Positions 26,776 to 45,889 of a stretch of DNA of 64,000 nt are shown here, piece by piece. How positions within the stretch are numbered: the first letter of the stretch is position 1; the number at the start of each line of letters is the position of its first letter. The DNA is from Acidobacteriota bacterium (GTDB taxonomy: Bacteria > Acidobacteriota > Terriglobia > Terriglobales > Acidobacteriaceae), in assembly GCA_021779935.1 (NCBI GenBank), contig JAJXZT010000062.1:62001-126000 (forward strand), written 5' to 3'. The notes below the pieces were generated by a model. It ran no database searches and was not told where the DNA came from. It was given only the letters and a program-made list of their open reading frames with translations. The position numbers and the translations under genes were made by a program.

Positions 26776-26810
26776 GCCTAGTGCCTAATACCTGGCGCCT
26801 ACTACCTCTC
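26776..26810. repeat. Degenerate heptamer repeat, five units (RCCTNNN)
   Basis: Five consecutive 7-base units: GCCTAGT, GCCTAAT, ACCTGGC, GCCTACT, ACCTCTC. The core CCT stays in register while other bases vary. It fills the gap and overlaps the last codons and the stop of the YceI gene on the minus strand. Confidence 0.7.
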
Positions 26811-27401: not shown

Positions 27402-27431
27402 CCGAGACTCCTTATTAACTGTTGTCCTGAT

Positions 27432-28550: not shown

Positions 28551-28553
28551 GGA

Positions 28554-29603: not shown

Positions 29604-29829
29604 CTTTACTTTTTCCTTTCGGGATACACCACCGACTGTATGCATCCTACGCGGCGCAACTGAAGTCCGCTTTTCAGGCAGATGACAATCCGTTCATCTC
29701 CTGTCATCTGCACCCCATTCTTGTGCCGGATTAGCGATGCTCACACTCGCCTGTGCGCTGCGCACTTCCGGCCCTTATCCCCCTTCCGTACTCTTGTTCA
29801 CCTTGAGCAATGCTCTCGCGGGGGATCCC

Positions 29830-31071
29830 TTGTCCTTTGTCACCGAGTTGCGTTGTGTTGCCTGCGGAAAAAACTGGCCCATCCGCGTCCCATACACGTG
29901 TCCTGCCTGCGGCGTCACCGGCATTCTTGATGTCCTGTACGACTACCGTGCCATTCGCCGCTCGCTTACCCGTCGCGCCCTCGCCAGCCGCGCCGATTTT
30001 TCTCACTGGCGCTATCGCGAACTTCTTCCGCTTTCCGCGCGCTCCGTCCTGCCCCACCTGCAAGTCGGCTGGAGCCCTCTCTCCGAGACCGTCGCTCTTG
30101 CCCGCCATCTCGGCCTTCGATCTCTTTATATAAAGGATGATGGCCGCAACCCCAGCGGCTCACTCAAAGATCGCGCCAGTTCCATTGCGGTTGTTCGCGC
30201 CCGTGAAAAGCGCAACCCCATCGTCGCCTGCGCCAGCACCGGCAACGCCGCCTCCTCGCTCGCCGGAATGGCCGCCGCCATGGGTCTCCGCAGCGTCATC
30301 TTTGTTCCGCAGCGCGCGCCCGAGCCCAAAATCACGCAGTTGCTCATCTTCGGAGCTACCGTCTTTCGCGTCCTCGGAGGCTATGACGACGCCTTCCGCC
30401 TCTCACAGGAGTGTTGCGAACGCTTCGGCTGGTACAACCGAAACTGCGCCATAAACCCTTATCTCGTCGAAGGAAAGAAGACCGTCAGCCTCGAAATCGC
30501 CGAACAGCTTCAGTGGAATGTCCCCGACTGGGTCGCCATGTCCGTTGGCGATGGCTGCTCGATTGCCGCCGCCTGGAAGGCCTTCCGCGAACTCAAACTC
30601 CTCGGCCTCATCGAGCGCACGCCGCGGATGCTCGGTGTGCAGGCCGCCGGCGCCGCCCCCATCACCACCGCCTTCCGCTCCGGAAAGCCGCTCTGGCCGG
30701 TTGTTCCGCAGACCATTGCCGACAGCATTGCCGTTGGCGTTCCGCGCAATTGGCAGAAGGCCGTCCTCGCCATTCGCGAATCCGGCGGAACCATGCTCAA
30801 CGTCGCCGACGGCGAAATCCTCGACGCCATGGGTTACACCGGCCAGCTCGCAGGCATCTTCGCCGAGCCCGCCGCCGCCGCTTCCATCGCCGGCCTGAAG
30901 CGTGCCGTCGCCGAAGACATCGTGCCCAAACGCGCTCGTGCTGTCGCCGTCGTCACCGGCAGCGGACTCAAGGACATCCGCGCCGCGCAGACCGCCGTTT
31001 CTAAGCCTTTTGATGTCTCACCCGACGGTCATGAGCTCGACCAGATCCTGCATGACCGTCAGCTTGTGTAA
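29830..31071 (+). CDS. Threonine synthase-like fold-type II PLP enzyme
   Basis: The 413-residue product begins with a zinc-ribbon-like pair (CVACG and CPACG), then the PLP lysine in NPSGSLKDRASS, the phosphate-anchoring ASTGNAASSLAG and VPQRAPEPKITQLLIFGA, and a late GSGLKD. This is the threonine synthase layout, which turns O-phosphohomoserine into threonine, though the usual GSFKD reads GSLKD. TTG 29830 is proposed as start because GGGGGA precedes it and the ribbon then begins at once; ATG 29737 would add 31 atypical residues. It lies just before the purine cluster. Confidence 0.75.
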   Translation: MSFVTELRCVACGKNWPIRVPYTCPACGVTGILDVLYDYRAIRRSLTRRALASRADFSHWRYRELLPLSARSVLPHLQVGWSPLSETVALARHLGLRSLYIKDDGRNPSGSLKDRASSIAVVRAREKRNPIVACASTGNAASSLAGMAAAMGLRSVIFVPQRAPEPKITQLLIFGATVFRVLGGYDDAFRLSQECCERFGWYNRNCAINPYLVEGKKTVSLEIAEQLQWNVPDWVAMSVGDGCSIAAAWKAFRELKLLGLIERTPRMLGVQAAGAAPITTAFRSGKPLWPVVPQTIADSIAVGVPRNWQKAVLAIRESGGTMLNVADGEILDAMGYTGQLAGIFAEPAAAASIAGLKRAVAEDIVPKRARAVAVVTGSGLKDIRAAQTAVSKPFDVSPDGHELDQILHDRQLV

Positions 31072-31134
31072 TGGAGTACGCTTTCTCCGTGTGCTTCCGT
31101 AAGCCTCTTTTGCTTGCGTGGGTCCGTTGACTTT

Positions 31135-31162
31135 GCTTGCAGCTTGTCGCTTGCCGCTTGTG
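31135..31162. repeat. Degenerate heptamer repeat, four units (GCTTGNN)
   Basis: Units GCTTGCA, GCTTGTC, GCTTGCC and GCTTGTG follow one another without a gap; only the last two bases vary. Confidence 0.8.
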
Positions 31163-31179
31163 GTGCACTCTCTACTGTC

Positions 31180-31207
31180 TGAATGCTGAGTGCTGACTGC
31201 TGAATGC
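31180..31207. repeat. Degenerate heptamer repeat, four units (TGANTGC)
   Basis: Units TGAATGC, TGAGTGC, TGACTGC and TGAATGC in perfect 7-base register; only the fourth base varies. It ends 20 bases before the 8-oxoguanine deaminase start, in that gene's leader. Confidence 0.85.
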
Positions 31208-31227
31208 TTCTTTTTACGAGGATTCCC

Positions 31228-32607
31228 ATGACCACCGCCAATTCGCTCCTCATCCGCGATCTCCACACTCTCGTCACCATGAACGATGACCGCGAAGTCA
31301 TCCATGGCGGATTCCTCTATGCGGAAGATGGTGTCATCAAGCTCATTGGCCAGCGACCGCCTCGCAATCTCCGCGCACGTCGCGTCATTCGCGGCAACGC
31401 TCTCATCGCCGTCCCCGGACTCATCAACACTCATCACCATCTCTTTCAGACGCTCACCCGCGCCTGCACCGCTGCCGCCAACGCCGAGCTTTTCGACTGG
31501 CTGCGCACTCTCTATCCTCTCTGGTCGCGTATCGACGAAGAGGCCACCCATGTCGCCGCCCTCGTCGGAATGGCCGAACTCATGCTCTCCGGCTGCACCA
31601 CCACCTCCGACCATCATTATTTGTTCCCGCGCGGCCAGTCCCGGCTCATCGACGCCCAGATTGCCGCCGCCCGCAAGATCGGCATTCGCTTCCACGCCAC
31701 CCGTGGCAGCATGAGCGTCGGCGAAAGCAAGGGCGGCCTTCCACCCGACTCCGTCGTTCAGGATGACGACACCATCCTCGCCGACTCCGAGCGCGTCATC
31801 CGCAAGTACCATGATCCTCAACCCGGAGCTATGATCCGGGTTGCTCTCGCTCCCTGTTCGCCCTTCAGCGTCTCGCCTGAACTTATGCGTCGCACCGCCG
31901 AACTTGCCGAGCGCCATGACGTTCGCCTCCACACCCATCTAGCGGAAACTCGCGATGAAGAGCGCTATTGCCTTGAGCATTTCGGCAAGCGCCCGCTCGA
32001 TTTCCTCGACAGTGTCGGCTGGCTCACCGATCGCTCCTGGCTTGCCCACGGCATCTACTTCTCTGCCTCCGAGGTCCGTCGTCTTGGACGTGCCCACGTC
32101 GGCATTGCCCACTGCCCCACCTCCAACATGCGCCTCGGTTCCGGCTTCTGCCCTGCGCTTGCCCTCCAGCGCGCCGGTTCGCCTGTCGGTCTTGGTGTCG
32201 ACGGCAGCGCCTCCAATGACAGCTCCCACATGCTCGCCGAAGCCCGCAACGCCCTTCTTCTCAACCGCCTGCGCCACGGAGCCGCCGCCATCACCGTCGA
32301 ACAGGCCCTCCGCATGGCCACCGTCGAGGGCGCCCATTGTCTCGGACGTTCCGATATTGGAACACTCGAACCCGGCAAGCGCGCCGACATCGCCCTCTTC
32401 GACCTGCGCAACCCCTCCTATTCCGGCGCGGAAGATGCATTGTCCGCGCTTCTTCTCTGCGCTCCCGCCACCGTGCACACCCTCGTCGTTGAAGGTCGCG
32501 TCGTTGTGGAAGACGGCGTCCTGAGCACTCTTTCGCTCGACCCCATCCTCCGCCGTCACAGACGTATAGCGACGCGCGTCACAAACAATCCGCGCCCACT
32601 CTGCTAA
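31228..32607 (+). CDS. 8-oxoguanine deaminase (amidohydrolase superfamily)
   Basis: The 459-residue product is an ATZ/TRZ-type metal amidohydrolase: His69/His71 in INTHHHLFQTLTR, a mid-sequence LHTHLAETRDEE, HCPTSNMRLGSG and the catalytic Asp in GVDGSASNDSSHMLAE. The RACTAA...FDWLRTLYPLW segment and SASNDSS are features I associate with 8-oxoguanine deaminases, which release ammonia from 8-oxoguanine to give uric acid. Start ATG 31228 follows ACGAGGA. It leads the purine cluster, so it would supply urate to the downstream XdhD/YgfK/YgfM complex. Other aminopurine or triazine substrates are possible. Confidence 0.82.
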   Translation: MTTANSLLIRDLHTLVTMNDDREVIHGGFLYAEDGVIKLIGQRPPRNLRARRVIRGNALIAVPGLINTHHHLFQTLTRACTAAANAELFDWLRTLYPLWSRIDEEATHVAALVGMAELMLSGCTTTSDHHYLFPRGQSRLIDAQIAAARKIGIRFHATRGSMSVGESKGGLPPDSVVQDDDTILADSERVIRKYHDPQPGAMIRVALAPCSPFSVSPELMRRTAELAERHDVRLHTHLAETRDEERYCLEHFGKRPLDFLDSVGWLTDRSWLAHGIYFSASEVRRLGRAHVGIAHCPTSNMRLGSGFCPALALQRAGSPVGLGVDGSASNDSSHMLAEARNALLLNRLRHGAAAITVEQALRMATVEGAHCLGRSDIGTLEPGKRADIALFDLRNPSYSGAEDALSALLLCAPATVHTLVVEGRVVVEDGVLSTLSLDPILRRHRRIATRVTNNPRPLC

Positions 32608-32685
32608 TCTCCGTCCCCTCTGGAGAAGTTGCAGTCTCGGCCTTTTGTTCGTTTTCGGTACGTTCTTTTTTCACGGGAGGACGTC

Positions 32686-33549
32686 GTGTTCGAGCATGTC
32701 CGGGCTTTTCACCAACCGCGCACTATTTCCGAAGCTATACGTCTGCTGAATCACCGCGATGGCGTTGCCTGCCTCGTCGCCGGCGGTACTGATCTCGCCT
32801 TGCGTGCAGGTCGCACCGTCACCGATCTGGTCGATGTCACCCATCTCGGTCTCGCTTACATCAAGCGCGATGGCCGCGCCATTCGCATCGGCGCCACCAC
32901 CACCATGTCTGCGATCGAGCAATCTTCGTTCATTCAGCACATGGCCAATGGCATCCTTGCCCACGCAGCCGCCAGTTGTGGTTCCGCGCAGACGCGCAAT
33001 CTCGCCACCCTTGGCGGCAATCTCGCCAATGCTTCGCCCGCCGCGGATACCGCGACACCCCTGCTCGTCCTCGACGCCGACGTCGTGCTTCAGGGTCTGC
33101 GCGCCAAGCGCCGTCTTCCGCTCACCGAGTTCTTCACCGGTCCGCACAAGACCGCGGCCAACGCGTCGCTGCTCGTCGAACTCGTCATCCCCGGCCCCGA
33201 GCCGCGCACCGCCTGGTCGTTCCAGAAGTTTGGCCGGACCGAGGTCGACATCTCCATCGTCAATGTCGCTGCCGGCATCAAGCTCGACCGCGCCAATCGC
33301 GTCACCTTTGCGCGCATCGCTCTCGGAGCTGTCGCTCCGCGTCCCATCCGTGCTCACGGAGCCGAGTTCCTTCTTGAAGGTCGCGTCCTCGACCAGCATC
33401 TTCTCGATGCCGTCTCCGAGGAAGCCGCGCAGGAAATCGATCCCATTGACGACGTCCGCGCCTCCGCCGCATACCGGCGCGAACTCACCCAGGTTCTTGT
33501 CCGCCGGGCGCTGCTCGAATGTGCCGCCAGGTTGGAGCGTGCATTATGA
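32686..33549 (+). CDS. ygfM: YgfM-like FAD subunit of a molybdenum hydroxylase
   Basis: The 287-residue product is the medium FAD-binding subunit: VAGGTDLALRAGRT (FAD pyrophosphate loop), GATTTMSAIE, then NLATLGGNLANASPAADTATPLL, the typical flavin site of xanthine dehydrogenases. GTG 32686 was chosen as start because GGGAGGA lies just upstream and the fold starts right after. The stop overlaps the start of the XdhD gene by ATGA. It passes electrons between the Fe-S/Mo subunit and an outside partner, probably YgfK. Confidence 0.85.
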   Translation: MFEHVRAFHQPRTISEAIRLLNHRDGVACLVAGGTDLALRAGRTVTDLVDVTHLGLAYIKRDGRAIRIGATTTMSAIEQSSFIQHMANGILAHAAASCGSAQTRNLATLGGNLANASPAADTATPLLVLDADVVLQGLRAKRRLPLTEFFTGPHKTAANASLLVELVIPGPEPRTAWSFQKFGRTEVDISIVNVAAGIKLDRANRVTFARIALGAVAPRPIRAHGAEFLLEGRVLDQHLLDAVSEEAAQEIDPIDDVRASAAYRRELTQVLVRRALLECAARLERAL

Positions 33550-36404
33550 AGAGATCCGGCCGTAATTCCACTCCCTCCATGCAACTCTCGCTTCGCGTCA
33601 ACGGCGAAGCCCGTGAATGGACCATCGCCCCTGGCGACCTCCTCCTCGACGTCCTTCGTCGCGAAGGCTACTACGGTGTCAAGCGCGGCTGCGAAACCGG
33701 CGAGTGCGGTGCTTGCACAATTCTGCTCGATGGCAAGCCCGTCAACTCCTGCATGATCTTCGCCGCCCAGGCCGAAGATCGCGAGATCACTACCGTCGAA
33801 GGCGTAGCCCACGGTGATCAGCTTCACCCCGTGCAGCAATCGCTTGTCGACCACGGTGGCGTGCAGTGCGGCTTCTGCACTCCCGGCATCGTCCTCAGCA
33901 GCAAGGCTTATCTGGAAGAGCACCCCAACGCCTCCGAGGACGAAATTCGTACCGCGCTCTCCGGCCATCTCTGCCGTTGCACCGGATACAGCAAACCCGT
34001 CGAGGCCGTTCTCGCCGCCGAGCACGCCGCCACGCGCAAACCCTCGCACGCCGCGCATTCGCACGACATCGTCGGTCACAACGAACCCAAGGTCGATGCT
34101 GTCAAATTCGTCACCGGACGCCCCGCCTTCACCGATGACATTCACATCCCCGGCATGCTCTACGGCAAGATTCTCCCCAGCCCCCACGCGCATGCCCGCA
34201 TTCGTTCCATCGATGTCAGCAAGGCCCGCGCCCTTCCCGGCGTCCACGCCGTGCTCACCTATAAGGATGTTCCGCGCGTCCCCCATACCACCGCCGGGCA
34301 AGCATGGCCGGAACCGTCGCCATACGACACATATCTTCTCGACTCCAAGGTCCGCTTCGTTGGCGATCGCGTCGCCGCCGTCGCCGCCGAATCCCGCGAG
34401 ATTGCCGAGGAGGCCCTTCGCCGCATCCAGGTCGAATACGAGGTTCTTCCTCCCGTCCTCGACATGGAGCACGCCTCCGATCCCGGCGTTCCCGTCATTC
34501 ACGATGAAAAGGACTCCACCGGCATTCACGACGCGCGCCACAACGTCGCCTCAGTCATTCACAAGCAGATCGGGGATGTCGAGCAGGGCTTCCGTGACTC
34601 CGACCTCATCTTTGAGAATGAGTACCGCACGCCGCGCCAGCACCATTGCTCGCTCGAACCTCACATCACCATCACCTGGCTCGACGAAGACAAGCGCCTC
34701 GTAATCCGCACCAGTACGCAGATCCCTTTCCATGTGCGTCGCCAGGTCGGCATGATTCTCCAGATTCCCGTGCAGCGTATCCATGTCATCAAGCCGCGCA
34801 TCGGTGGCGGCTTCGGCGGTAAGCAGGAGATGCTCCTCGAGGACATCTGCGGCGCGCTCACCCTTGCCACCAACCGCCCGGTCAAGATGGAGTACACCCG
34901 CCACGAGGAATTCTTCATGGCGCGCAGCCGTCACGCCCAGGTTCTCCGCGTCAAAATGGGCTTCCGCAAGGACGGCACGATTCTCGCCAATCACATGTCC
35001 GTGCTCGCCAGCACCGGCGCTTACGGCAGTCATTCATCCACCGTGCAGGGCAATACCGGCAGCAAGGTTCTGCCGCTCTATCGCGCCCCTCACCTCAAGT
35101 TCGATTGCGACATCGTCTACACCAACACGCCCGTCTCCGGTGCATTCCGCGGCTACGGCTGTCCCCAGGGCTTCTTCGCGCAGGAATCTCTCATCGATGA
35201 AGTTGCCGAAAAGCTCCGCCTCGATCCCATTGAACTGCGCCTCAAGAACCTCATCCGCCAGGGCGACACCGATGAACTCTCCGCGCAGTTGGGCGAGGGC
35301 CGCAAGGGCCTGCCGCGTCTCATCCGCAGTTGCGGCATGGACGAGTGCCTCGCGCGCGGGGCCGCCGCCATCGGATGGAAGCAGAAACGCTCAGCCCGCC
35401 GCGACAAGAAAAGTCCCTTCCAGCACGGCATTGGTGTTGCCTGTTCCATGCAGGGCAGCAGCATCGCCGGCATCGACTGGGGCTCCGCCACCGTCACTCT
35501 CAACGAAGATGGTTCCTACCGCGTCCACACCGGTTGTGCCGATGTCGGCGCCGGGGCGGACACAGTCCTCTCGCAGATTGCCGCCGAAACTCTCGGCGTC
35601 ACCCTCGACAAGATCACGCTTCTCTCCGGCGACACCGATTACACGCCTTTCGACGTTGGCGCTTACGCCTCCAGCACCACCATCATCTCCGGCGGAGCCG
35701 TCAAGAAGGCCGCCGAGAAGGCCCGCGCCAGCTTCCTGGAAGTCGCCGCGCCGCTCATGAAGGTTCCTGTCGAAAAACTGACCTGTCGTAACAATCTGGT
35801 CATCGATCTCGACGACGAGCGCCACACCATGCCCATCGCTGAAGTCGCGCGCCACGCCACTTACAAGGCCAAGGTGCAGATCATCGAGAGCGCCTCGCAT
35901 TTCATTACGGACAGTCCTCCACCCTTCTGCGCCACCTTTGCGGAAGTCGAAGTCGACACCGAGACCGGCAAGGTCCGCGTCCTTCATCTCGTCAACGCCG
36001 TCGATTGTGGCGTCGCCCTCAATCCCAATCTCGCCGAGGGTCAGGTCGAAGGGGCCGCCGCGCAAGGCATCGGCTATGCGCTCCATGAAAACATGCAGCT
36101 CGACGAAAACGGCCGCATGTTGAACGCCAACTTCCTCGACTACAAGATTCTCTCGTCAAAGGACATGCCGAAGCTGACGACCATCCTCGTCCCCACCGAG
36201 GAGCCACTCGGTCCCTACGGTGCAAAGTCCATCGGCGAGATCGCCATCAACAATCCCGGCCCTGCCATCGCCAACGCCATTTACCACGCCATTGGCATTC
36301 GTTTCCGTCAGCTACCCATCCGCTCCGAGGACGTTCTTCGCGCTATCCATGAGCGCGAATCCGCCGCGCAACCCAATTTTGCCGAGGTCTCGAAATCCCT
36401 ATGA
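33546..36404 (+). CDS. xdhD: XdhD-like fused [2Fe-2S]/molybdopterin hydroxylase
   Basis: The 952-residue product joins a two-cluster ferredoxin part (GCETGECGACTILLDG, QCGFCTPG, CRCTGY within the first 170 residues) to the molybdenum domain (RIGGGFGGKQE, SGAFRGYGCPQ, and the catalytic Glu in YGAKSIGEIAINNPGP). Its length and order match E. coli XdhD, whose cluster has been linked to anaerobic uric acid breakdown and earlier to selenate reduction. It overlaps ygfM and ygeY by four bases each. No in-frame UGA and no selenocysteine is present, in spite of the 'selenium' names of these families. Confidence 0.88.
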   Translation: MKRSGRNSTPSMQLSLRVNGEAREWTIAPGDLLLDVLRREGYYGVKRGCETGECGACTILLDGKPVNSCMIFAAQAEDREITTVEGVAHGDQLHPVQQSLVDHGGVQCGFCTPGIVLSSKAYLEEHPNASEDEIRTALSGHLCRCTGYSKPVEAVLAAEHAATRKPSHAAHSHDIVGHNEPKVDAVKFVTGRPAFTDDIHIPGMLYGKILPSPHAHARIRSIDVSKARALPGVHAVLTYKDVPRVPHTTAGQAWPEPSPYDTYLLDSKVRFVGDRVAAVAAESREIAEEALRRIQVEYEVLPPVLDMEHASDPGVPVIHDEKDSTGIHDARHNVASVIHKQIGDVEQGFRDSDLIFENEYRTPRQHHCSLEPHITITWLDEDKRLVIRTSTQIPFHVRRQVGMILQIPVQRIHVIKPRIGGGFGGKQEMLLEDICGALTLATNRPVKMEYTRHEEFFMARSRHAQVLRVKMGFRKDGTILANHMSVLASTGAYGSHSSTVQGNTGSKVLPLYRAPHLKFDCDIVYTNTPVSGAFRGYGCPQGFFAQESLIDEVAEKLRLDPIELRLKNLIRQGDTDELSAQLGEGRKGLPRLIRSCGMDECLARGAAAIGWKQKRSARRDKKSPFQHGIGVACSMQGSSIAGIDWGSATVTLNEDGSYRVHTGCADVGAGADTVLSQIAAETLGVTLDKITLLSGDTDYTPFDVGAYASSTTIISGGAVKKAAEKARASFLEVAAPLMKVPVEKLTCRNNLVIDLDDERHTMPIAEVARHATYKAKVQIIESASHFITDSPPPFCATFAEVEVDTETGKVRVLHLVNAVDCGVALNPNLAEGQVEGAAAQGIGYALHENMQLDENGRMLNANFLDYKILSSKDMPKLTTILVPTEEPLGPYGAKSIGEIAINNPGPAIANAIYHAIGIRFRQLPIRSEDVLRAIHERESAAQPNFAEVSKSL

Positions 36405-37651
36405 CCGCCAACAACACCATCCTCCGCATGCGCGACCGCATCGCCGCCGAAGCCAAGGCTTATGAAGCCGACATCGTGCATTTTCTCCGCGACCTCGTCG
36501 AAATTCCCGGCGAGAGCAGTCACGAAGGCCCTGCCATTCAGCGCATCCGTCAGGAGATGGAAAAGGTCGGCTTCGACGAAATCCGCATCGACCCCATGGG
36601 CAACATCCTTGGACGCATCGGCTCCGGGCGCCACGTCATCATGATGGATGCCCACATCGACACCGTCGGCATCGGCGATCCCGCCGAATGGAAGTGGGAC
36701 CCTTACAAGGGCAAGGTGGAGGACGGTTACATCTACGGCCGCGGCTGCTGCGACCAGCGCGGCGGAATGGCCAGCATGGTCTACGCCGCCAAAATCATCA
36801 AATCCCTCGACCTCCACGGTGACTACACCCTCTGGGTCGTCGGCAGCGTGCAGGAAGAGGATTGCGACGGCCTCCCCTGGCTCTACATTCTCCGCGAAGG
36901 CAACATCCGGCCCGAGCTCGTGTTCATCACCGAGCCCAGCAACCTGCGTGTCTATCGCGGCCACCGTGGGCGCATGGAAATCGAGGTCCACATGCGCGGC
37001 CGCTCCTGTCACGCCAGCGCCCCCGAGCGCGGTGACAATCCCATCTATCGCATGGTCCCGCTTGTCCAGCAGGTTGAGCAGTTGAACACTCGCCTGCGCA
37101 ACGATCCTTTCCTTGGCAAGGGAACCGTCTCCGTCACCGAGATTCGTTCGCTCTCGCCCTCTCTTTGTGCGGTCCCCGGCGCCTGTTCCATTCATCTCGA
37201 CCGCCGCCTCACCGCCGGAGAGACGCGCGAATCCGCGCTCGACGAGATTCGTGCGCTGCCCGCCGCTGCCGGTGCGGAGATCGAAGTCCTCCGCTACATG
37301 CAGCCCAGTTACACCGGCCTCGTCTATCCCATGGACAAGTACTACCCCACCTGGGTGCTCGACGAGCATCATCCCGCCGTCGAGGCTGGCGCCGATACCT
37401 GGCGCGTTCTCACCGGCACCGAACCCATCGTCGACAAGTGGACCTTCAGCACCAACGGCGTCGGCTCCATGGGAACCTGCGGCGTGCCCACCATGGGCTT
37501 CGGTCCCGGCGACGAATCCGTCGCCCACTCCGTCAACGAACGTGTCGCCATCGATCACCTCGTGAAGGCCGCGCAGTTTTATGCCGCCTTCCCTCTTATG
37601 TATGTTCACGCGGCGGAACACGCGTCAGTCGCCAGCGCTGCCGTTCGTTAG
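36401..37651 (+). CDS. ygeY: YgeY-type M20 family hydrolase
   Basis: The 416-residue product is a zinc amidohydrolase of the M20 peptidase/ArgE fold: metal ligand His and catalytic Asp in MDAHIDTVG, bridging Asp in GCCDQRGGMAS, the acid/base Glu pair in SVQEEDCDG, and the late His in MGFGPGDESVAHSVNE. YgeY belongs to the uric-acid/purine gene set and would open an amide of a ring-cleaved purine. ATG overlaps the XdhD stop. It is 32 bases from ygfK. Confidence 0.87.
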   Translation: MTANNTILRMRDRIAAEAKAYEADIVHFLRDLVEIPGESSHEGPAIQRIRQEMEKVGFDEIRIDPMGNILGRIGSGRHVIMMDAHIDTVGIGDPAEWKWDPYKGKVEDGYIYGRGCCDQRGGMASMVYAAKIIKSLDLHGDYTLWVVGSVQEEDCDGLPWLYILREGNIRPELVFITEPSNLRVYRGHRGRMEIEVHMRGRSCHASAPERGDNPIYRMVPLVQQVEQLNTRLRNDPFLGKGTVSVTEIRSLSPSLCAVPGACSIHLDRRLTAGETRESALDEIRALPAAAGAEIEVLRYMQPSYTGLVYPMDKYYPTWVLDEHHPAVEAGADTWRVLTGTEPIVDKWTFSTNGVGSMGTCGVPTMGFGPGDESVAHSVNERVAIDHLVKAAQFYAAFPLMYVHAAEHASVASAAVR

Positions 37652-37683
37652 CCCGGCCCGCGAGCCGCATCCGGAGGATCAAA

Positions 37684-39909
37684 ATGTCGGAACTGGTGCC
37701 CATTCCGCTCGATCTCCAGCTTCGGCGCGCCTATCTCGAATACGAGCGCGAAGACAAGATCTTCGACCTTCCGCGCCGTGCTATCTTTCGCGGCCTGCCC
37801 GGGCTCGACCTCTCCGTCCGCACCAATGGCCATGCGGCCTTCACGCCCCTCGGTCCCGCCGCCGGCCCGCACTCCCAGCTTCTCCAGAACATCGTCCTCA
37901 GTTGGCTCGGCGGTTCGCGCATCATCGAACTCAAAACCGTCCAGGTCCTCGACGCCCTCTCGATCCCGCGTCCCTGCATCGACTCGGAAACCGTCACTTA
38001 CAACGTCGAGTGGTCGCAGGAACTTTCTCTCCAGCAGTCCTTGCGTGAATACGTCTCCGCCATGATGTTCCTGGAGGTCCTTAAGGCATCTTCGCTTCTC
38101 GGCGAGGACCTCCCGCGCGGCTTTTACGACACCGTTTTCGACATGAGCGCCGGCTATAACCTCGAAGGCATCCAGTCCGCTCCCATGCGCGCCTGGTTCG
38201 CCGGCATGATGGATGCATCGACACTCGTCGATGAATTGCGCCTGCTCATCGCCGGCCGTTTCGCCGCCTATCGCGACCTCCCCTTTCCCTCGCGCGTGAG
38301 CGACACCGTCACCCTCTCCACCTTCCACGGCTGTCCGCCCGAAGAGATCGAGCGCATTGTCACCTTCCTTCTCACCGAGGTCGGTCTCAACGTCTGCGTC
38401 AAGATGAACCCCACGCTCCTCGGTCAGCAGCAGGTCGCGCATCTTCTTTATGACGTTCTCGGCTACCGCGAAATCGAGCTTGTCCCTGACGCCTTCGAAA
38501 ACGATCTCCGCTTCGACGCCGCTCTCGACCTCATTCCGCGCCTCCAGTCCGTTGCGCTCTCCTGCGGACGCCGCTTCTCCCTCAAGTTCAGCAACACTCT
38601 CGTCGTCCGCAATCATCGCAACGTCTTCTCCGATGAGCGCATGTACCTCTCCGGCCCTCCGCTGCACGTGCTCACCCTCAACCTCGTGCGCGCCTTCCGC
38701 GAGCGCATGCCCGCCGCGCCGCCGCTCTCTTTTTCCGCCGGCATGACCGCCAACAACGTCGCTTCCGTTGTCGCCATGGATTTCGTCCCCGTCACCACCT
38801 GTTCTGATCTTCTGCGCCCCGGCGGTTACAGCCGCCTGCATCGCTATCTGGACAACCTCGGCGCCGCCATGCGCGAGTGCCATGCCGCGACCATTCCCGA
38901 GTTCGTTCTGCGCCATGCCGGAAAGGGGCGCGACGCCATCCATGCCGTCACCGCCGCCATGCTCGCCGACGCCACGCAGCTCTCTGGCTCTTCGTCCGCG
39001 CGCGAAACCGTCATCCCCTTCATCACCGATGTTGAAGCCCAACTCCTGCGCTGGTTTGAGTCTCCCGGCAAGTCATTGCGTTCGCTCTGCCGCGAGATTG
39101 CCGACGAGTTCACCCACGTCGCGGGCCGCATCCCGCACGAACTCGCCTCTCACCTTCAGGTGCATGTTTCGGGCCTCGAAGATGCGCTCACCGTCTCTGC
39201 TGGCAGCCTCAACACGCCGATTCTCGTCGACCTTGCTACCGGAGACCCGCGCTATCGCTGGGAGAGCAACCGTACTGCGCCAAAAACCATCGCTGCCGAA
39301 CTTTCTCTCTTCGACTGCATCAATTGCGACAAGTGCGTTGCTGGATGCCCCAACGACGCCATGTTCGTCTATTCCGGCGAACCCTTCGAAGTCGATTATT
39401 CCAATTACGAACTGCTGCCCGGCGGCGGATTTCGCGCAATTCCCGGCGGAACTTTTCGCATCACCCGCGCACGCCAGTTCGCCAACTTTGCCGATGCCTG
39501 CAATGATTGCGGCAACTGCGGTGTCCTCTGCCCCGAGCACGGCGAACCCAACCTCCGCAAACCGCGCTTCTTTGGCTCGCTTGAAAGTCTTGCCGCGCGC
39601 GGCACCGTCGATGGTTTCCACATCGTCGCCGAGGCCGGTCAGAAAACCATTCACTGTCTCATCGCCGGCCACCGCTATCGCCTCACCGTCGATCCCGCCG
39701 CCGACCGTGCGCGCTTCGAGAACGAGACCGCGGAGTACGTTCTTCAACCCGGTCGCAATGCGCTCATCGCCTGGCATGTTTTTGACGCCAGCGGCACTGT
39801 GCCTGCCCGTCTCGATCTTTTGCCGTATTTGCAGTTGAAGTTCCTGCTCGACAATGTTTCAGATTCCCGGCACGTCCACTACGCCAACGTTGCCGGTTTG
39901 GAGGAGTGA
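37684..39909 (+). CDS. ygfK: YgfK-like Fe-S protein, short form without NAD(P)H/FAD module
   Basis: The 741-residue product starts at ATG 37684 after GGAGGATC. The N-terminal half has the dihydroorotate-dehydrogenase-like barrel of YgfK (STFHGCPPEEIERI, VKMNPTLLG, SFSAGMTANN). Two ferredoxin motifs follow close together: CINCDKCVAGCPND near 545-558 and CNDCGNCGVLCPEHG near 605-619. E. coli YgfK has about 1030 residues and, as I recall, a GltD-like pyridine-nucleotide domain; no GxGxxG dinucleotide site is visible here and about 290 residues are missing. It probably works with XdhD and YgfM in urate reduction, but its electron source must differ. Confidence 0.85.
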   Translation: MSELVPIPLDLQLRRAYLEYEREDKIFDLPRRAIFRGLPGLDLSVRTNGHAAFTPLGPAAGPHSQLLQNIVLSWLGGSRIIELKTVQVLDALSIPRPCIDSETVTYNVEWSQELSLQQSLREYVSAMMFLEVLKASSLLGEDLPRGFYDTVFDMSAGYNLEGIQSAPMRAWFAGMMDASTLVDELRLLIAGRFAAYRDLPFPSRVSDTVTLSTFHGCPPEEIERIVTFLLTEVGLNVCVKMNPTLLGQQQVAHLLYDVLGYREIELVPDAFENDLRFDAALDLIPRLQSVALSCGRRFSLKFSNTLVVRNHRNVFSDERMYLSGPPLHVLTLNLVRAFRERMPAAPPLSFSAGMTANNVASVVAMDFVPVTTCSDLLRPGGYSRLHRYLDNLGAAMRECHAATIPEFVLRHAGKGRDAIHAVTAAMLADATQLSGSSSARETVIPFITDVEAQLLRWFESPGKSLRSLCREIADEFTHVAGRIPHELASHLQVHVSGLEDALTVSAGSLNTPILVDLATGDPRYRWESNRTAPKTIAAELSLFDCINCDKCVAGCPNDAMFVYSGEPFEVDYSNYELLPGGGFRAIPGGTFRITRARQFANFADACNDCGNCGVLCPEHGEPNLRKPRFFGSLESLAARGTVDGFHIVAEAGQKTIHCLIAGHRYRLTVDPAADRARFENETAEYVLQPGRNALIAWHVFDASGTVPARLDLLPYLQLKFLLDNVSDSRHVHYANVAGLEE

Positions 39910-39912
39910 TCC

Positions 39913-40959
39913 GTGAGCACCCAGACCTTGACGACCAAGCGAGCCCTCTTCAAGGGCAAGGATTACATCACCACCCAGGAGTGGACGAAAGAACAGATCG
40001 ACGTCCTTCTTGACGTCGCCGTTGACTTGCGCCGCAAGTTCAAGAATCGCATCCCGCATCGTTTCTTGCAGGACCAGACGGTCTTTCTCATGTTCTTCGA
40101 CAAGTCCACCCGCACCCGCAATTCTTTTGAAGCAGGCATGACGCAGCTTGGCGGACACGCACACTTCCTTACCGCCGACGTCATGCAGGTCTCGCACGGC
40201 GAAAGCCCCAAGGACACCGGCATCATCCTCTCGCGTTACGGCCACGGCATCGCCATCCGCCACGACCTCATCCCCGGCGAAGGCAACGCATACATGCGCG
40301 AAGTCGCTCGCTGGGCCGACGCCCCCGTCATCAACATGCAGTGCGATGTCGATCATCCCTGTCAGACGCTCGCCGACCTCATGACCATGCGTGACAAGCT
40401 CGGACACAATCTCCGCGGCCTCAAGGTGGCCGTCTCCTGGGCTTATGCGCCCAGCTACGCCAAGCCGCTCTCCGTGCCCCAGGGACTCATCATGCTTCTC
40501 CCGCGCTTCGGCATCGATGTCACTCTCGCGCACCCCCCTGAGTATTTCCTCATGCCGGAAACCATGGCGGCTGCCCGCGAAAACGCACGCCAGGCCGGCA
40601 CAAAGTTCGAAGTCGTCGGTAGCATGGACGACGCTTTCCGTGACGCCGACATCGTCATCCCAAAGAGCTGGGGATGCCTCGACACCATGGGTACGCGCCC
40701 CGAAGAATCCCTGCGCATCGCGAAGCAATACACCAACTGGATATGCGACGAACGCCGCATGGGATTTGCGCGCCGCAACTCGCTCTACATGCATCCGCTC
40801 CCGGCTGACCGCGGCAACGAGGTCACCGACGCTGTCATCGACGGCCCGCACTCCGTCGTCTATGACGAAGCCGAGAATCGTCTTCACACTTGCAAGTCCA
40901 TCATGGCGCTTACCATGGCCGAGCACGAAATCGAGTACCTCGTGGAGACTCCCGCGTAG
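39913..40959 (+). CDS. ygeW: YgeW-type carbamoyltransferase
   Basis: The 348-residue product has the carbamoyl-phosphate loop in FFDKSTRTRNSFEAGM, the HPCQ-type motif DHPCQTLADLMT and HPLPADRGNEVTD, in the order found in ornithine/aspartate transcarbamoylases. Length and wording match YgeW, which has a changed specificity loop and an unsettled substrate; in the purine set it would phosphorolyse a carbamoylated product to carbamoyl phosphate. GTG 39913 follows GGAGTGATC and lies 3 bases after the ygfK stop. No carbamate kinase gene is seen in the window. Confidence 0.87.
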   Translation: MSTQTLTTKRALFKGKDYITTQEWTKEQIDVLLDVAVDLRRKFKNRIPHRFLQDQTVFLMFFDKSTRTRNSFEAGMTQLGGHAHFLTADVMQVSHGESPKDTGIILSRYGHGIAIRHDLIPGEGNAYMREVARWADAPVINMQCDVDHPCQTLADLMTMRDKLGHNLRGLKVAVSWAYAPSYAKPLSVPQGLIMLLPRFGIDVTLAHPPEYFLMPETMAAARENARQAGTKFEVVGSMDDAFRDADIVIPKSWGCLDTMGTRPEESLRIAKQYTNWICDERRMGFARRNSLYMHPLPADRGNEVTDAVIDGPHSVVYDEAENRLHTCKSIMALTMAEHEIEYLVETPA

Positions 40960-40975
40960 CAGGCTGGCATCGACG

Positions 40976-42298
40976 ATGATCATTCACAACGCTCGCATCC
41001 TGACCCTCGACTCCGCCAATCGTGTCATCGACTCCGGCGCCCTCCGGATTCGTCCCGATGGCGCCATCGATTGGCTGCGTTCCGGCGAGCTCAATCGTCA
41101 CGATCCTCCCCACGACGAGCAGGTCATCGATGCCCGCGGCCGTCTCCTCATGCCCGCGCTCATCAACTGTCACACCCATCTCTACAGCACGCTCGCCCGC
41201 GGCCTCTCGCTTTCCTCGCCGCCGCCTCGCAACTTTACCGGAATACTCCGCAAACTCTGGTGGAAACTCGACCGCGCACTTTCCTCCGAAGACATCTATT
41301 ACAGCGCCCTCGTCGCCCTCATCGACTCCGCCAGGTCCGGCGTCGCCACTGTCGTCGACCACCACTCCAGCCCCGGTACATGCGCTCTATCGCTTGATGT
41401 CCTCGCCGCCGCTCTTCGCCAATCCGGCCTCCGCGGCGCGCTTTGTTACGAGGTCTCCGCCCGCAACGGTCTCGCCGCCGCCCGCGAAGCCATCGCCGAA
41501 AACGTTCGTTTCATCGACAAATCTCGATCCATGCACGACGACCGGCTCGCCGCTGCCTTCGGCCTCCATGCATCCTTCACCCTGCCGGACCGCGTCCTCC
41601 GTGAGTGCGTCGAAGCCAACCAGTCTCTCTCCGCTCCGTTCCACATCCACCTCGCGGAAGACCGCTGCGATGTTGACGATTCTCGCCGCCGTTATGGCAA
41701 GTCTCCCGCGCGCCGTCTCTTCGATCTCGGCATCCTCAACCAGCGCACCATTGCCGCCCACTGCGTCCACGTCTCCGCCTCGGATGTCGCGCTCCTCGCC
41801 CGCTGCGGGGCCAGCGTCATTCACAATCCGCAGTCCAATTGCAATAACGCTGTCGGCATCGCGCCGCTCGCGCGCCTCTTGCGCCAGGGCGTTCTTGTCG
41901 GACTCGGTTCGGACGCCTACTCGCCCCGTCTCTGGGAAGAATTTCTGACCGCTGGTCATCTTCTAAAATTGCGCGCCCGCGATCCTCGCGAATCCGGCGC
42001 CTTCACCGTTCTGCTCAACAACCGCGAGATCGTGAAGAAACTCTTTGGCTGGAACCTCGGACGCATCGAGCCGGGCACATCCGCCGATCTCATGTTGCTC
42101 GACTACTATCCGCCCACCGCTCTTACCGCGGACAACGTTATCGGCCACGTTACTTTTGGAATCGCTCACGCAACCGTTCATTCGTTATTGGTCAATGGCA
42201 ACTTCGTCCTTCGCGATCACGAGTGTGTCACCCTGGACGAGCCTGCCATCTGTGAAGAAGCCCGCATTCGGGCTGGAAAACTTTGGCGGCGAATGTAA
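40976..42298 (+). CDS. ssnA: SsnA-type amidohydrolase
   Basis: The 440-residue product is a metal amidohydrolase: HTHLYSTLARGLSL in the first barrel strand, IHLAEDRCDVDDS, AAHCVHVSASDVALL, HNPQSNCNNAVGIAPL and GLGSDAYSPRLWEE. The SP-x2-NF-x-GILRKLWWKLD segment and the length are typical of SsnA. SsnA belongs with YgeY, YgeW, YgfK and XdhD in purine/urate degradation and would hydrolyse a ring-opened or aminopurine intermediate. ATG 40976 lies 17 bases after ygeW. Confidence 0.86.
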   Translation: MIIHNARILTLDSANRVIDSGALRIRPDGAIDWLRSGELNRHDPPHDEQVIDARGRLLMPALINCHTHLYSTLARGLSLSSPPPRNFTGILRKLWWKLDRALSSEDIYYSALVALIDSARSGVATVVDHHSSPGTCALSLDVLAAALRQSGLRGALCYEVSARNGLAAAREAIAENVRFIDKSRSMHDDRLAAAFGLHASFTLPDRVLRECVEANQSLSAPFHIHLAEDRCDVDDSRRRYGKSPARRLFDLGILNQRTIAAHCVHVSASDVALLARCGASVIHNPQSNCNNAVGIAPLARLLRQGVLVGLGSDAYSPRLWEEFLTAGHLLKLRARDPRESGAFTVLLNNREIVKKLFGWNLGRIEPGTSADLMLLDYYPPTALTADNVIGHVTFGIAHATVHSLLVNGNFVLRDHECVTLDEPAICEEARIRAGKLWRRM

Positions 42299-42324
42299 CT
42301 CTCCGCCTGCACACGAGGCTCACG

Positions 42325-43701
42325 ATGCAATCCATGACCTTCGGCCCCACGTATCAGGAAATGCTCCACCCCGAACTTCTTCCGGCGGAACTTCGCCGCC
42401 GCGCTGAAGCTGCACGCGCCAACGAACTCGACCCCGCCAACCTTTTCAACATCACCTGGGAAGCCCCCGACAACTCCGTCCGTCACGTCGTCCTTCCCCG
42501 CGAATTGACCGGCGTCGACGCCAACATTGTCGTGCTCGTCGGACGCCACTTCCCTTCCGGCAGCCACAAAGTCGGTCCCGCCTATTCCACTCTCATGGAG
42601 GGCGAACTCGCCGGAGAGATTCATCCCGGCCAGAACACCATTATTGGACCGTCCACCGGCAACTTCGGCATCGGCTCCGCCTACATCGCGCACCTCATGG
42701 GCTACCCCTGCGTCGTCATCATGCCCGAGCAAATGAGTGCCGAGCGTTACGAGCGCATTCGCAAATACGGCGCCAATCTCGATCTCACTCCCGGCTCCGA
42801 GAGCGACGTTATCCTCGTCCTCGAGCGCACTGAGCATTACAAGAAGGATCCACACAACAAGATCCTCGCGCAGTTTGAGCTTCTTCCTAACTACCGTTTC
42901 CACCGCTTCGTCACCGGGCGCAGCGCACTTCGGGCTGCCAGTCTCCACGGGGACGGTCGCGTTGCCGCCTTCGTTGCCGCTCCCGGTTCTGCCGGCACTC
43001 TCGCCGCCGCCGACGAAATCAAGGCTGTCTTCCCTTCCGCCGCCACCGTCGCGCTTGAACCGCACGAGTGCTCCACTCTCTACAACAACGGCCGCGGCAC
43101 GCATCGCATCGAGGGCATCGGCGACAAGATGGTCACCCTCATTCACAACGTCCTCAACACCGATTACGTCATGCTCATTCACGATGACGATTGCGTTGTC
43201 GCCCTTGAACTCATCGAGCACCAGCAGGCCATACTCGAGCGCACGTTGCACATGCTCCCTGGCGCGCTCGCTTACCTTCGCGGAGTCTTCGGCGTCTCGG
43301 GCACCTGCAACATCCTCGGCTCCATTCGCACCGCGCACTTCCTCGGCCTCGGCCCGGACGACAACATCGTCACCATCGCCACCGATGGCTTTGACCGTTA
43401 CCCCTCCGTCCTCGCCGACCTCGCGCGCCGTCGCGGTCCTTTCAATGCCGGCAATATTCCAGAACATTTCGAGCAGACATACCGCGGTGGCTCCACGGAG
43501 GATATTCTCGACGTTCGTTCGCCCGCGCAAAAGCAGCGCCTCTTCGAATACAAGCAACAGGTCTGGACGCGCTTCGGCTACTCGCTCGAATATCTGCGAA
43601 GCATGACCCATCAGAGTTTTTGGGAGGCTGAGTACGAAAAGATTTGGGATATCGACGCCGCGCTTCTCCGCGCCCGCCGTGTCTCCCTCGCATCGGTTTA
43701 G
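42325..43701 (+). CDS. Fold-type II PLP enzyme (cysteine synthase/ammonia-lyase-like) of the purine cluster
   Basis: The 458-residue product is a tryptophan-synthase-beta-fold enzyme: the PLP Lys is in SGSHKVGPAYST, the phosphate loop in GPSTGNFGIGSAY, and PEQMSAERYERIRKYGA follows. E. coli places YgeX (diaminopropionate ammonia-lyase, near 400 residues) in this operon; this enzyme is longer and has a different active-site wording, so it may fill the same step or a related one. ATG 42325 follows CACGAGG; a TTG at 42283 would overlap ssnA. It ends the cluster before a strong terminator. Confidence 0.75.
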   Translation: MQSMTFGPTYQEMLHPELLPAELRRRAEAARANELDPANLFNITWEAPDNSVRHVVLPRELTGVDANIVVLVGRHFPSGSHKVGPAYSTLMEGELAGEIHPGQNTIIGPSTGNFGIGSAYIAHLMGYPCVVIMPEQMSAERYERIRKYGANLDLTPGSESDVILVLERTEHYKKDPHNKILAQFELLPNYRFHRFVTGRSALRAASLHGDGRVAAFVAAPGSAGTLAAADEIKAVFPSAATVALEPHECSTLYNNGRGTHRIEGIGDKMVTLIHNVLNTDYVMLIHDDDCVVALELIEHQQAILERTLHMLPGALAYLRGVFGVSGTCNILGSIRTAHFLGLGPDDNIVTIATDGFDRYPSVLADLARRRGPFNAGNIPEHFEQTYRGGSTEDILDVRSPAQKQRLFEYKQQVWTRFGYSLEYLRSMTHQSFWEAEYEKIWDIDAALLRARRVSLASV

Positions 43702-43733
43702 TTGGTTTTCGCCTGCAGGTGTTCTTCTTTGCG

Positions 43734-43775
43734 CCCCATTCAAGTCTTCTTTCGGCTTGAATGGGGTGGCTGTTT
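43734..43775. terminator. Strong bidirectional-looking terminator after the purine cluster
   Basis: CCCCATTCAAG (43734-43744) pairs perfectly with CTTGAATGGGG (43756-43766), loop of 11 bases, followed by TGGCTGTTTTT. It lies between the convergent PLP-enzyme gene and the kinase gene and could serve both, though the T-run is only on the plus side. Confidence 0.85.
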
Positions 43776-43782
43776 TTGCGGT

Positions 43783-43824
43783 TCTAATAGCTAACAGCTA
43801 TCAGCTAATGGCTTTCTGCTAAAC
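43783..43824. repeat. Degenerate heptamer repeat, six units (GCTANNN)
   Basis: Units TCTAATA, GCTAACA, GCTATCA, GCTAATG, GCTTTCT and GCTAAAC follow in 7-base register. On the minus strand this sequence encodes the last residues of the histidine kinase (KPLADSC and stop), so the repeat has run into the gene end. Confidence 0.75.
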
Positions 43825-45221
43825 CTCACCGCCATCGTTGTTCCTTCTTCTCCCGTCGCTTCCACGCAAATGGTCCCTCCGTAGGTTTCTACGATTGCGT
43901 TCGCGATCGCCAGTCCCAGTCCGTATCCGCCCGTATCGCGCGTCCGTGACTGGTCTCCCCGATGGAAACGGTCGAAGATTTTTGCTACCTCTTCCTTTGG
44001 AATTCCCGGGCCGCGATCTTCCACCGCCACCCGCGCGCCGGCTTCATCGTTCGTCACTGTGATCCTGACTGTCTCTCCCGCCGGACTGTAGCGCACCGCG
44101 TTTTCCAGCAGGTTCGCCCAAACCAGTTCCAGGTCTTCCGTGTCGGCGCGCATCCGCACCGGCCCGTTGTTCGCGAACTCCAGCTTCACGCCGCGCATGT
44201 CTGCAAACGGCTGCAACCGCTCCATCGCTGACTGGCATGTCGTTCCCAGTTCAATCTCCGGCAAGTCGCGTTGCAGGTTGCCCATCGCCCACTGCTCCGC
44301 CCGCGCCAGTCGCAGCATCGAGTGCAACAGTTTCTCCAGCCGCGCCATGTCCTCCAGGGCCTTTTCAATTCCCGCGCGATACTCCTCTGACCGTCTCGGC
44401 CTGTGCAACAGCGATTGCAGTGTTGACTTCAGGATCGCCACCGGCGTCTTCAGTTCGTGTGCCGCGTTCGTCAGGAACTCCCGCTGCTGTGTGAACGCCT
44501 TCTGTAGCGATCGCAGCATCGATGTCATTGCCTGTGTCAGCGGTCCCAGCTCCGCCGTTGTTTGGGCTTCTTCTGAAACCTGCAGCTCCCAGTTCACCGG
44601 AGAAACCGACGCCGCGCTGTTCGCCAGCGCTTGCAGCGGAAACAGTCCCCGCCGTATGCCCCACAGCGCCAGCCCCGCCGTCACTGCCAGCAGCACCAGG
44701 CTTCCTATTCCCAGGTACAGCCCCGCGCTTGCATACAGCTCATCCATTTCTTCCGTCGGAGCCGCGTAGATCACCGTCAGCGTCGGTGGCGCCGGCGTGC
44801 CCGCGCCTTCGCTGTCCAGCACTGGCAGCGCCGCCATGCGCACCGCACGATACGAAGTGCCGCCTATCGTCACGTGCCAGAATTGTCTTGGCGTCTGCCT
44901 GTCGAATCTTTCTTTCCAGTTCGGCGATTGCGCGGAAAACTTTCCGTCGCTCGAATACACCTTGTATGCGTCCGGATGCTTCGCGTCCAGCGGGCGCGGT
45001 GCCAGTTCACCGTCGAACATCAGCTTTGACGGTTCGTCCTCCGAGTACCGCACCAGTGCCGCGATGCTCATCGACCGTCCTTGCAGTCCCGCGTCGAACG
45101 CCGTCCGCAACTGCCGTCTCAGTGAGTACATACTCAATGCCGCCAGCCCTCCCGCCAGCAGCAGTTGCGACACAATCACCGCCGTAATCAGTTGTCCTTG
45201 GATGGATCGCCGTGCCGTCAT
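43791..45221 (-). CDS. Sensor histidine kinase of the second efflux locus
   Basis: The 476-residue product has two membrane segments (about 14-33 and 170-192) around a periplasmic sensor, a HAMP stretch, a HisKA helix with the His in TNAAHELKTPVAILK, and HATPase boxes (ANLLENAVRYSPAGE, VEDRGPGIPKEEV, GYGLGLAIANAI). It overlaps the regulator stop by four bases and is divergent from the tolC/MFP/RND operon at 46264, an arrangement typical of metal or drug efflux control. The C-terminal seven residues are encoded by a heptamer micro-repeat. Confidence 0.9.
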   Translation of the reverse strand: MTARRSIQGQLITAVIVSQLLLAGGLAALSMYSLRRQLRTAFDAGLQGRSMSIAALVRYSEDEPSKLMFDGELAPRPLDAKHPDAYKVYSSDGKFSAQSPNWKERFDRQTPRQFWHVTIGGTSYRAVRMAALPVLDSEGAGTPAPPTLTVIYAAPTEEMDELYASAGLYLGIGSLVLLAVTAGLALWGIRRGLFPLQALANSAASVSPVNWELQVSEEAQTTAELGPLTQAMTSMLRSLQKAFTQQREFLTNAAHELKTPVAILKSTLQSLLHRPRRSEEYRAGIEKALEDMARLEKLLHSMLRLARAEQWAMGNLQRDLPEIELGTTCQSAMERLQPFADMRGVKLEFANNGPVRMRADTEDLELVWANLLENAVRYSPAGETVRITVTNDEAGARVAVEDRGPGIPKEEVAKIFDRFHRGDQSRTRDTGGYGLGLAIANAIVETYGGTICVEATGEEGTTMAVRFSRKPLADSC

Positions 45222-45889
45222 CGCTTGATCATGTACCCCTGGCCGCGCAGCGTCTGGATCAGTTTCTCGCTGCCGCCCTCGTCCAGCTTCCGTCGCAATC
45301 CCGAGATATACACTTCAATCACGTTGCTGAACCGCTCCCAGTTGAAGTCGTACAAATGTTCCAGCAGTTCGGTCTTTGAAACCACCGTGTTTGGCCGGTG
45401 TGCCATGTATTCCAGCACTCTGTATTCCATGCCCAGCAGGCTCACCAGCGTGCCCGCGCGACGCACCGAATGGTCCGCCGTATTGATCTCGATGTCGCCC
45501 ACCCGCAGCACCGGCGACCTCTGCCCTTTGCCGCGGCGAATCAGCGCCTTCGCTCGCGCCAGCAATTCTCCAAGGTCAAACGGTTTCGTCACGTAATCGT
45601 CCGCACCTGCATTCAGCACCGTGACAATCATCTCTTTCTCGTCTCGCGCCGTCAGCACCAGCACTGGAACGTCCATATCTCCCCCGCGCAGTTTTTGCAG
45701 CACCGTTATGCCGTCCATGCGCGGCAGCATCAGGTCCAGCAGGATCAGGTCATACGGATTCGACTCCGCCATGTAGAGTCCTTCTTCGCCGTCGAACACG
45801 ATGTCCACCGCATATCCACCGCTTTCGCGGAGCACTTCCGCGATGTTCTCCGCCAGCCGGACTTCGTCTTCGATGATCAGTACTCGCAT
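45218..45889 (-). CDS. OmpR-family response regulator of the second efflux locus
   Basis: The 223-residue product has the receiver (VLIIEDEVRLAENI, phospho-acceptor in LLDLMLPRMDG, VTKPFDLGEL) and winged helix (LLGMEYRVLEYMAHRP, VIEVYISGLRRKLD, RGQGYMIKR). This wording is of the CusR/QseB-like type. ATG 45889 has GAGGGC upstream. It most likely controls the divergent efflux operon, acting in the 374-base gap. Confidence 0.9.
   Translation of the reverse strand: MRVLIIEDEVRLAENIAEVLRESGGYAVDIVFDGEEGLYMAESNPYDLILLDLMLPRMDGITVLQKLRGGDMDVPVLVLTARDEKEMIVTVLNAGADDYVTKPFDLGELLARAKALIRRGKGQRSPVLRVGDIEINTADHSVRRAGTLVSLLGMEYRVLEYMAHRPNTVVSKTELLEHLYDFNWERFSNVIEVYISGLRRKLDEGGSEKLIQTLRGQGYMIKR

Follow-up and report, generated by a model that had tools for sequence, protein, structure and literature searches.

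We analyzed a stretch of 64,000 nucleotides (hereafter the window) that covers positions 62001-126000 of a 243,824-base contig (JAJXZT010000062.1) from an Acidobacteriota bacterium, the genome of which comprises 4.49 Mb in 72 contigs and is 99.02% complete. The window contains a block of nine collinear + strand genes (29737-43701) that resembles the bacterial gene clusters for reductive uric acid breakdown. A first-pass annotation had described eight of these genes, at 31228-43701, as a complete urate-type cluster headed by an 8-oxoguanine deaminase. All eight frames were present on the + strand, and no internal stop was found in any of the nine, so that the observation itself was confirmed and its interpretation was supported in part. 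The ThrC-like gene at the 5' end, the absence of an NAD(P)H module from YgfK, and the fact that the last enzyme, which depends on pyridoxal phosphate (PLP), is not YgeX had been overlooked. The encoded proteins were typed with NCBIfam models and their cut-offs, Pfam domains, and identity to Escherichia coli proteins, giving the following features:

29737 to 31071, + strand: ThrC-like fold-type-II PLP enzyme (PF00291, 229.8 bits; the true start may be near 29833)
31228 to 32607, + strand: 8-oxoguanine deaminase-type amidohydrolase (NF006055, 665.5 bits against a cut-off of 532)
32629 to 33549, + strand: YgfM-like flavin adenine dinucleotide (FAD) subunit of a molybdenum (Mo) hydroxylase (PF00941, PF03450; start probably near 32683)
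33519 to 36404, + strand: XdhD-like fused 2Fe-2S and Mo subunit (37% identity to E. coli XdhD over 966 columns)
36401 to 37651, + strand: YgeY, an M20 hydrolase (TIGR03526, 579.8 against a cut-off of 321.5; 56% identity to E. coli YgeY)
37684 to 39909, + strand: short YgfK of 741 amino acids (flavin mononucleotide (FMN) barrel and 4Fe-4S dicluster, no FAD/NAD(P)H module)
39913 to 40959, + strand: YgeW-like knotted carbamoyltransferase (39% identity to E. coli YgeW over 340 columns)
40976 to 42298, + strand: SsnA aminohydrolase (PRK07203, 459.4 against a cut-off of 444; 37% identity to E. coli SsnA)
42325 to 43701, + strand: CysK/SbnA-like fold-type-II PLP enzyme (alternative start 42283)
43732 to 43768, + strand: terminator-like hairpin of 15 pairs with a T-rich tail, 3' of the last gene

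From the deaminase gene onward, the frames overlap or are separated by gaps of less than about 100 bases, and 156 bases lie between the end of the ThrC-like frame and the deaminase start. This gap (31072-31227) carries imperfect short repeats such as ctgaatgctgagtgctgactgctgaatgct. The hairpin was obtained by a consensus scan and is weak by number, the stretch having six such sites against a mean of 10.2 in shuffled sequences; beyond it stand two-component genes on the opposite strand. The nine genes would be co-transcribed.

The reductive urate pathway, an oxygen-free route of gut bacteria that leads from urate through yanthine to pyruvate, has been published for E. coli and, as a Clostridium variant, for Clostridium difficile (PMC12507026; PMC12990295). 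According to the former paper, the E. coli cluster consists of xdhD, ygfM, ygfK, ssnA, hyuA, ygeW, yqeA, ygeY, and ygeX. The block in the window shares with it homologues of XdhD, YgfM, the N-terminal barrel of YgfK, SsnA, YgeW, and YgeY. Among the gene names given in the first-pass annotation, those of the deaminase, YgeY, and SsnA (by PRK07203; TIGR03314 was narrowly missed at 450.8 against 455.5) were borne out by scores over cut-off, whereas YgfK (361.1 bits against 835.3), YgeW (PRK07200, 248.7 against 453), XdhD (TIGR03313, 721.9 against 1101.9), and YgfM (TIGR03312, 91.5 against 241.5) are homologues that scored below the E. coli-type cut-offs. The YgfM-like protein scored better with XdhB models and was 27% identical to E. 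coli YgfM and 33% to E. coli XdhB. The YgeW-like protein and E. coli YgeW have the stretch WAYxPSYxKPLSVPQG in common, and a dearomatizing reductase barrel of the YgfK family is encoded two genes upstream of SsnA. In the XdhD-like protein, the sequence LGEGR aligned with IGEGK of the E. coli enzyme, so that its Glu matched Glu606 of E. coli XdhD, for which a urate-orienting role has been proposed from a model (PMC12507026). All 20 XdhD rows of at least 54% identity, that of the window among them, have this GEG[KR] motif with its Glu, whereas the 21 other locus rows (27-45% identity) and E. coli XdhA do not.

We counted as relatives' loci those in which YgfM is present and XdhD reaches 60% identity or more (n = 15). 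The gene order on one strand was identical in all 15, as far as each contig extends, which excludes a chance arrangement. In 13 of them, a carbamate kinase gene separates ygeW from ssnA, the remaining two being L046 (no match) and L072 (the contig stops before this point); in the window, ssnA begins 16 bases past ygeW at this position. HyuA is encoded downstream of the PLP gene in L049 and L070. The ThrC-like gene stands immediately 5' of the deaminase gene in seven relatives' loci, and this conservation with the operon makes the set one of nine genes. Ten loci extend 2.9 kb or more upstream of YgfM; seven of these had both the deaminase and ThrC-like genes and three (L052, L065, and L073) had neither, so that the core can work there without the ThrC-like gene. 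A decaying operon was rejected for the window, as the nine frames are free of internal stops and only carbamate kinase is absent compared with kin, likewise in L046. At L068 (4269-5001), the 8-oxoguanine deaminase gene is divided between two overlapping frames, reflecting either an assembly frameshift or a decaying gene.

The YgfK of the block is short. Residues 7-404 of E. coli YgfK were matched at 39% identity, followed only by a match to 905-962; since about 405-904 has no match, the FAD/NAD(P)H part is missing. In a tree of 66 rows built from the N-terminal region, 53 short forms were separated from 13 long ones by one branch with support of 100/100; the tree is midpoint-rooted and thus does not distinguish loss of the module from its gain. 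One locus (L117) has both a long and a short YgfK. In an alignment of the 53 short rows, made of 52 of the 66 listed full-length short loci plus the window, all eight Fe-S cysteines were invariant. An AlphaFold model had a mean pLDDT (predicted local distance difference test) of 87.1 and a pTM (predicted template modeling score) of 0.89, and its low-confidence stretches (534-554 and 614-624) contain four of these eight cysteines. Over about 15-517, the model resembled the FMN barrel of dihydroorotate dehydrogenase (DHODH) and of the pyrimidine domain of dihydropyrimidine dehydrogenase (Z 25-26, root-mean-square deviation 2.6-3.6); the comparison speaks for this region, with residues past 517 barely covered, and the Foldseek TM (template modeling) score of the whole model was about 0.3. 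Unlike these enzymes, to which it is 12-17% identical, the short YgfK has C-terminal Fe-S motifs and no NADPH domain. With the middle domain of E. coli YgfK, E. coli YgfT, and PreT of this genome as queries, loci L001-L125 gave matches only to long YgfK, to YgfK, YgfT, and YgfS of E. coli itself, and to the PreT mentioned. Thus, no GltD-like partner was found beside short YgfK in these loci, the flanks of which are often short, so that a nearby partner is possible there. At L075, L077, L079, L083, L085, L091, and L113, which are of SAR324 or other proteobacterial type, SsnA and short YgfK occur with an XdhD-like protein without the GEG motif; carbamate kinase is also encoded at L079, L085, L091, and L113, and YgeW at L079 and L113. 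Possibly, the pathway is the same at these loci and employs another Mo enzyme.

The last gene of the block encodes the CysK-like PLP enzyme, which matched cysteine synthase models far under their cut-offs. Its Lys82 was invariant in 22 rows, and the folds nearest to its structure model were those of beta-cyanoalanine synthase and cysteine synthase (CysK), the chemistry of which is beta-elimination or beta-replacement. We infer that this enzyme removes the beta-substituent of 2,3-diaminopropionate, and it is predicted to stand in for YgeX. A YgeX hidden elsewhere in the genome was rejected, the best match reaching 49.8 bits against a cut-off of 532.25. Among 396 genomes of the phylum, YgfK was found in 43 and the CysK-like protein in 64; the CysK-like gene was present in 41 of the 43 genomes with YgfK and in 23 of the 353 without it (naive Fisher p 1e-36, which kinship among the genomes overstates, as it does the other p-value below). 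Absences in these counts are soft, because only the best two (YgfK) or four (other proteins) first-look candidates per genome were scored. The two genes lie at most 30 kb apart on one contig in 19 of the 41 genomes having both. YgeX-like genes (E 1e-60) occurred in 13/43 YgfK genomes and 24/353 others, with none of the 396 genomes over cut-off. Short and long YgfK were told apart by open-frame length (416-943 and 1046-1317 amino acids, respectively). In genomes with short YgfK, the CysK-like enzyme was found in 20/20 and a YgeX-like one in 2/20; the corresponding numbers for long YgfK were 21/23 and 11/23. The CysK-like enzyme is therefore a general partner of YgfK, and the replacement of YgeX rests on the short set. 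YgfK was partial in G155 and G200; that of G200 (L043) is nearer to E. coli YgfK than to the window's and is probably long, which would leave a short set of 19 (CysK-like 19/19, YgeX-like 1/19). The CysK-like matches split into a close group (45% identity and up) and a distant one (32-43%), which may differ in function.

The ThrC-like enzyme scored over the cut-off of TIGR00260 (215.3 against 167.1) and under that of NF006050 (286.2 against 303), and the Lys of its S-L-K-D-R stretch was invariant in 14 rows. Because the closest models of both PLP enzymes (threonine synthase, cysteine synthase, and SbnA) are biosynthetic, and the ThrC-like gene is missing beside the operon in the same three relatives as the deaminase gene, the two could belong to a merely linked route of amino-acid or diaminopropionate synthesis and not to the end of the pathway. 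We consider this rather unlikely, since it is countered by the association of the CysK-like gene with YgfK, above all in the short-YgfK genomes where YgeX-like genes are rare, and by the chemistry of its fold neighbors.

The deaminase is predicted to convert 8-oxoguanine to urate. It belongs to the same NCBIfam family as the 8-oxoguanine deaminases of Pseudomonas aeruginosa and of the Sargasso Sea (PDB 3hpa), and its closest solved structures were 3hpa and 7ww2, with which it shares a Gln, a Glu, a His, and an Asp matched by eye to the catalytic set of PMC13054789. Among the papers found on this enzyme, we saw none that connects it with a reductive urate operon. Deaminase genes were found in 24 of the 396 phylum genomes (23 over cut-off), namely in 11/43 genomes with YgfK and 13/353 without (naive p 6e-6). 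On an Elusimicrobia contig (L100), ThrC-like, PLP, 8-oxoguanine deaminase, and short YgfK genes are adjacent, and on another (L103), the deaminase gene adjoins that of short YgfK. Homology, the conserved order in relatives, and this adjacency agree with the first-pass prediction of a urate-type cluster fed by the deaminase, which we read as an optional entry module for the urate genes.

That annotation had also proposed that the route either differs or is completed elsewhere, and a search of the genome found a candidate for each of the two missing enzymes as well as one PF00860 permease (C20:87396). HyuA is encoded at C28:137616-138995 (TIGR02033, 638.4 against a cut-off of 393.25), beside preA, preT, and a gene of the methylmalonate-semialdehyde dehydrogenase (MMSDH) type, and it is 60% identical to the HyuA within the L070 operon. 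A carbamate kinase gene (TIGR00746, 372.9 against 358.25) lies on C20 between ornithine and aspartate carbamoyltransferase genes, with a product that shares just 43% identity with the kinases of the operon type. Provided that these proteins are shared, the genome can complete the route. The word complete was too strong for the cluster itself, from which hyuA, carbamate kinase, and ygeX are absent. Twelve amidohydrolase matches were found in the genome, two of which are the cluster's own and two of which fall in one frame; the typed frames were NagA, PyrC, HutI, HyuA, and three weak Xaa-Pro-dipeptidase-like ones, and C28:261726 and C56:10120 were left untyped. As to an oxidative route, no typed frame scored over the allantoinase cut-off, and no search aimed at uricase was made. 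Two COX1 genes over cut-off suggest that the host can respire oxygen, and its life may be facultative. The genome also has selD, and databases use names such as selenate reductase and "selenium metabolism protein" for proteins of this kind. A role of the cluster in selenium metabolism is nevertheless highly improbable and was rejected, as a genome search at E 0.001 did not find the maturation gene yqeB (TIGR03309); moreover, the E. coli counterparts have been shown to degrade urate (PMC12507026). The selD match (G000:C49:44337-45260; L130) reads through one in-frame TGA, so that SelD may itself be a selenoprotein.

Taking these results together, the block is probably a variant operon for reductive uric acid breakdown in an acidobacterium that probably lives in soil. 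The soil setting, also assumed in the first-pass annotation, derives from the habitats named for relatives: the closest named YgfK relatives were metagenome-assembled genomes of Acidobacteria, Terriglobia, and Bryobacterales, the names of which point to soil, peat, lake, and groundwater. Within the family, YgfK (E 1e-40) was found in three genomes, including that of the window, and in none of 36 others, and the trait is therefore patchy. In the proposed route, the first amidohydrolase would form urate from 8-oxoguanine and perhaps guanine analogues, and XdhD-YgfM, the predicted urate-to-yanthine reductase, would remove the 6-oxygen. The short YgfK, as the predicted yanthine reductase, would reduce the ring with electrons that do not pass through a built-in NAD(P)H domain; their source may be ferredoxin, XdhD-YgfM, or a flavoprotein encoded separately, for example PreT of this genome. 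SsnA is predicted to act downstream of this step, opening the reduced ring to ureidomethyl-hydantoin, and the HyuA encoded elsewhere would open the hydantoin. YgeW would then free carbamoyl phosphate for the carbamate kinase encoded elsewhere, and YgeY, predicted to strip the second ureido group, would yield 2,3-diaminopropionate, which the CysK-like enzyme, with or without the ThrC-like one, would convert to pyruvate and ammonia by eliminating the beta-amino group.

Several observations weigh against this route. The XdhA model scored slightly better than the XdhD model for the Mo enzyme (751.8 and 721.9 bits, both under cut-off), a near-tie by which the scores leave reaction direction and substrate undecided. 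The operon has no carbamate kinase gene, the genome's HyuA may serve uracil only, and 32 of the 43 YgfK genomes have no 8-oxoguanine deaminase. Loci of SAR324 and Myxococcota pair short YgfK with Mo hydroxylases without the GEG motif, so that yanthine need not always be its substrate. An alternative is that the Mo enzyme runs in the ordinary way, from hypoxanthine or xanthine to urate, that the remaining genes have some other compound, purine- or pyrimidine-like, as their substrate, and that the deaminase acts mainly on guanine, isocytosine, or methylated guanines. The XdhA score favors it, as do the reductive pyrimidine genes preA, preT, and hyuA in the genome and the deaminase family, which has members with guanine, isocytosine, and N2,N2-dimethylguanine as substrates, so that membership does not fix substrate preference. 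The alternative is unlikely in our judgment, given that all close XdhD rows keep the Glu606-type motif and that SsnA, YgeY, YgeW, YgfK, and XdhD jointly constitute the published urate set (PMC12507026).

If the block is a reductive urate operon, it differs from that of E. coli in several respects. Its YgfK is without the region of about 405-904, a CysK-like PLP enzyme takes the place of YgeX, 8-oxoguanine deaminase and ThrC-like genes are added, hyuA and carbamate kinase lie outside the cluster, and a YgeV-type activator is not among the nine genes. With neither the YgfK NAD(P)H module nor YgeX, the block does not simply belong to the E. coli type. It resembles the UacX/UacY cluster of C. difficile in that the dearomatizing reductase, which is thought to use ferredoxin in that organism, carries no FAD/NAD(P)H domain of its own (PMC12507026). 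However, UacX is described there as a PydA homologue, whereas the reductase here is of the YgfK family, and the block has YgeW instead of UacY as well as a YgfM subunit. The phyla that Li et al. name for SsnA in the available part of their paper are Pseudomonadota, Bacillota, Chloroflexota, Actinomycetota, Spirochaetota, and Elusimicrobiota, with Acidobacteriota not among them (PMC12507026). Among the literature titles and abstract openings searched, which did not cover subscription papers and bioRxiv, we found no report of this variant.

As for the surroundings, genes resembling those for a type III polyketide synthase and an FAD monooxygenase, together with a YceI-domain gene (26805-29645, - strand), are divergent from the operon and perhaps form a small polyketide or quinone cluster. 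The two-component system beyond the hairpin (43791-45889) is followed on the + strand by genes for an HlyD-type fusion protein and an AcrB-type resistance-nodulation-division (RND) pump (47612-52043), and untyped gene groups of similar size to this pump group are located at 4101-9873 and 11190-17367. The G+C content drops to 0.509 in 56001-60000 from about 0.60 in the surroundings, and frame 58005-59396 has a low third-position G+C; this region is possibly foreign DNA.

A further-reaching reading, which we offer tentatively and hold less likely than the operon assignment, is that the short YgfK represents a separate class of urate-pathway reductase that uses a carrier other than NAD(P)H and operates with a CysK-family diaminopropionate/albizziin lyase and an entry from oxidized guanine in respiring soil bacteria. 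Related gene blocks were found in other environmental bacteria. The block as observed offers a possible fate for the carbon and nitrogen of 8-oxoguanine, and testable functions for one family of reductases and two of PLP enzymes. If the further-reaching reading is true, products of nucleic-acid damage would become a source of carbon and nitrogen, and a route known from anaerobes would extend into several environmental phyla.

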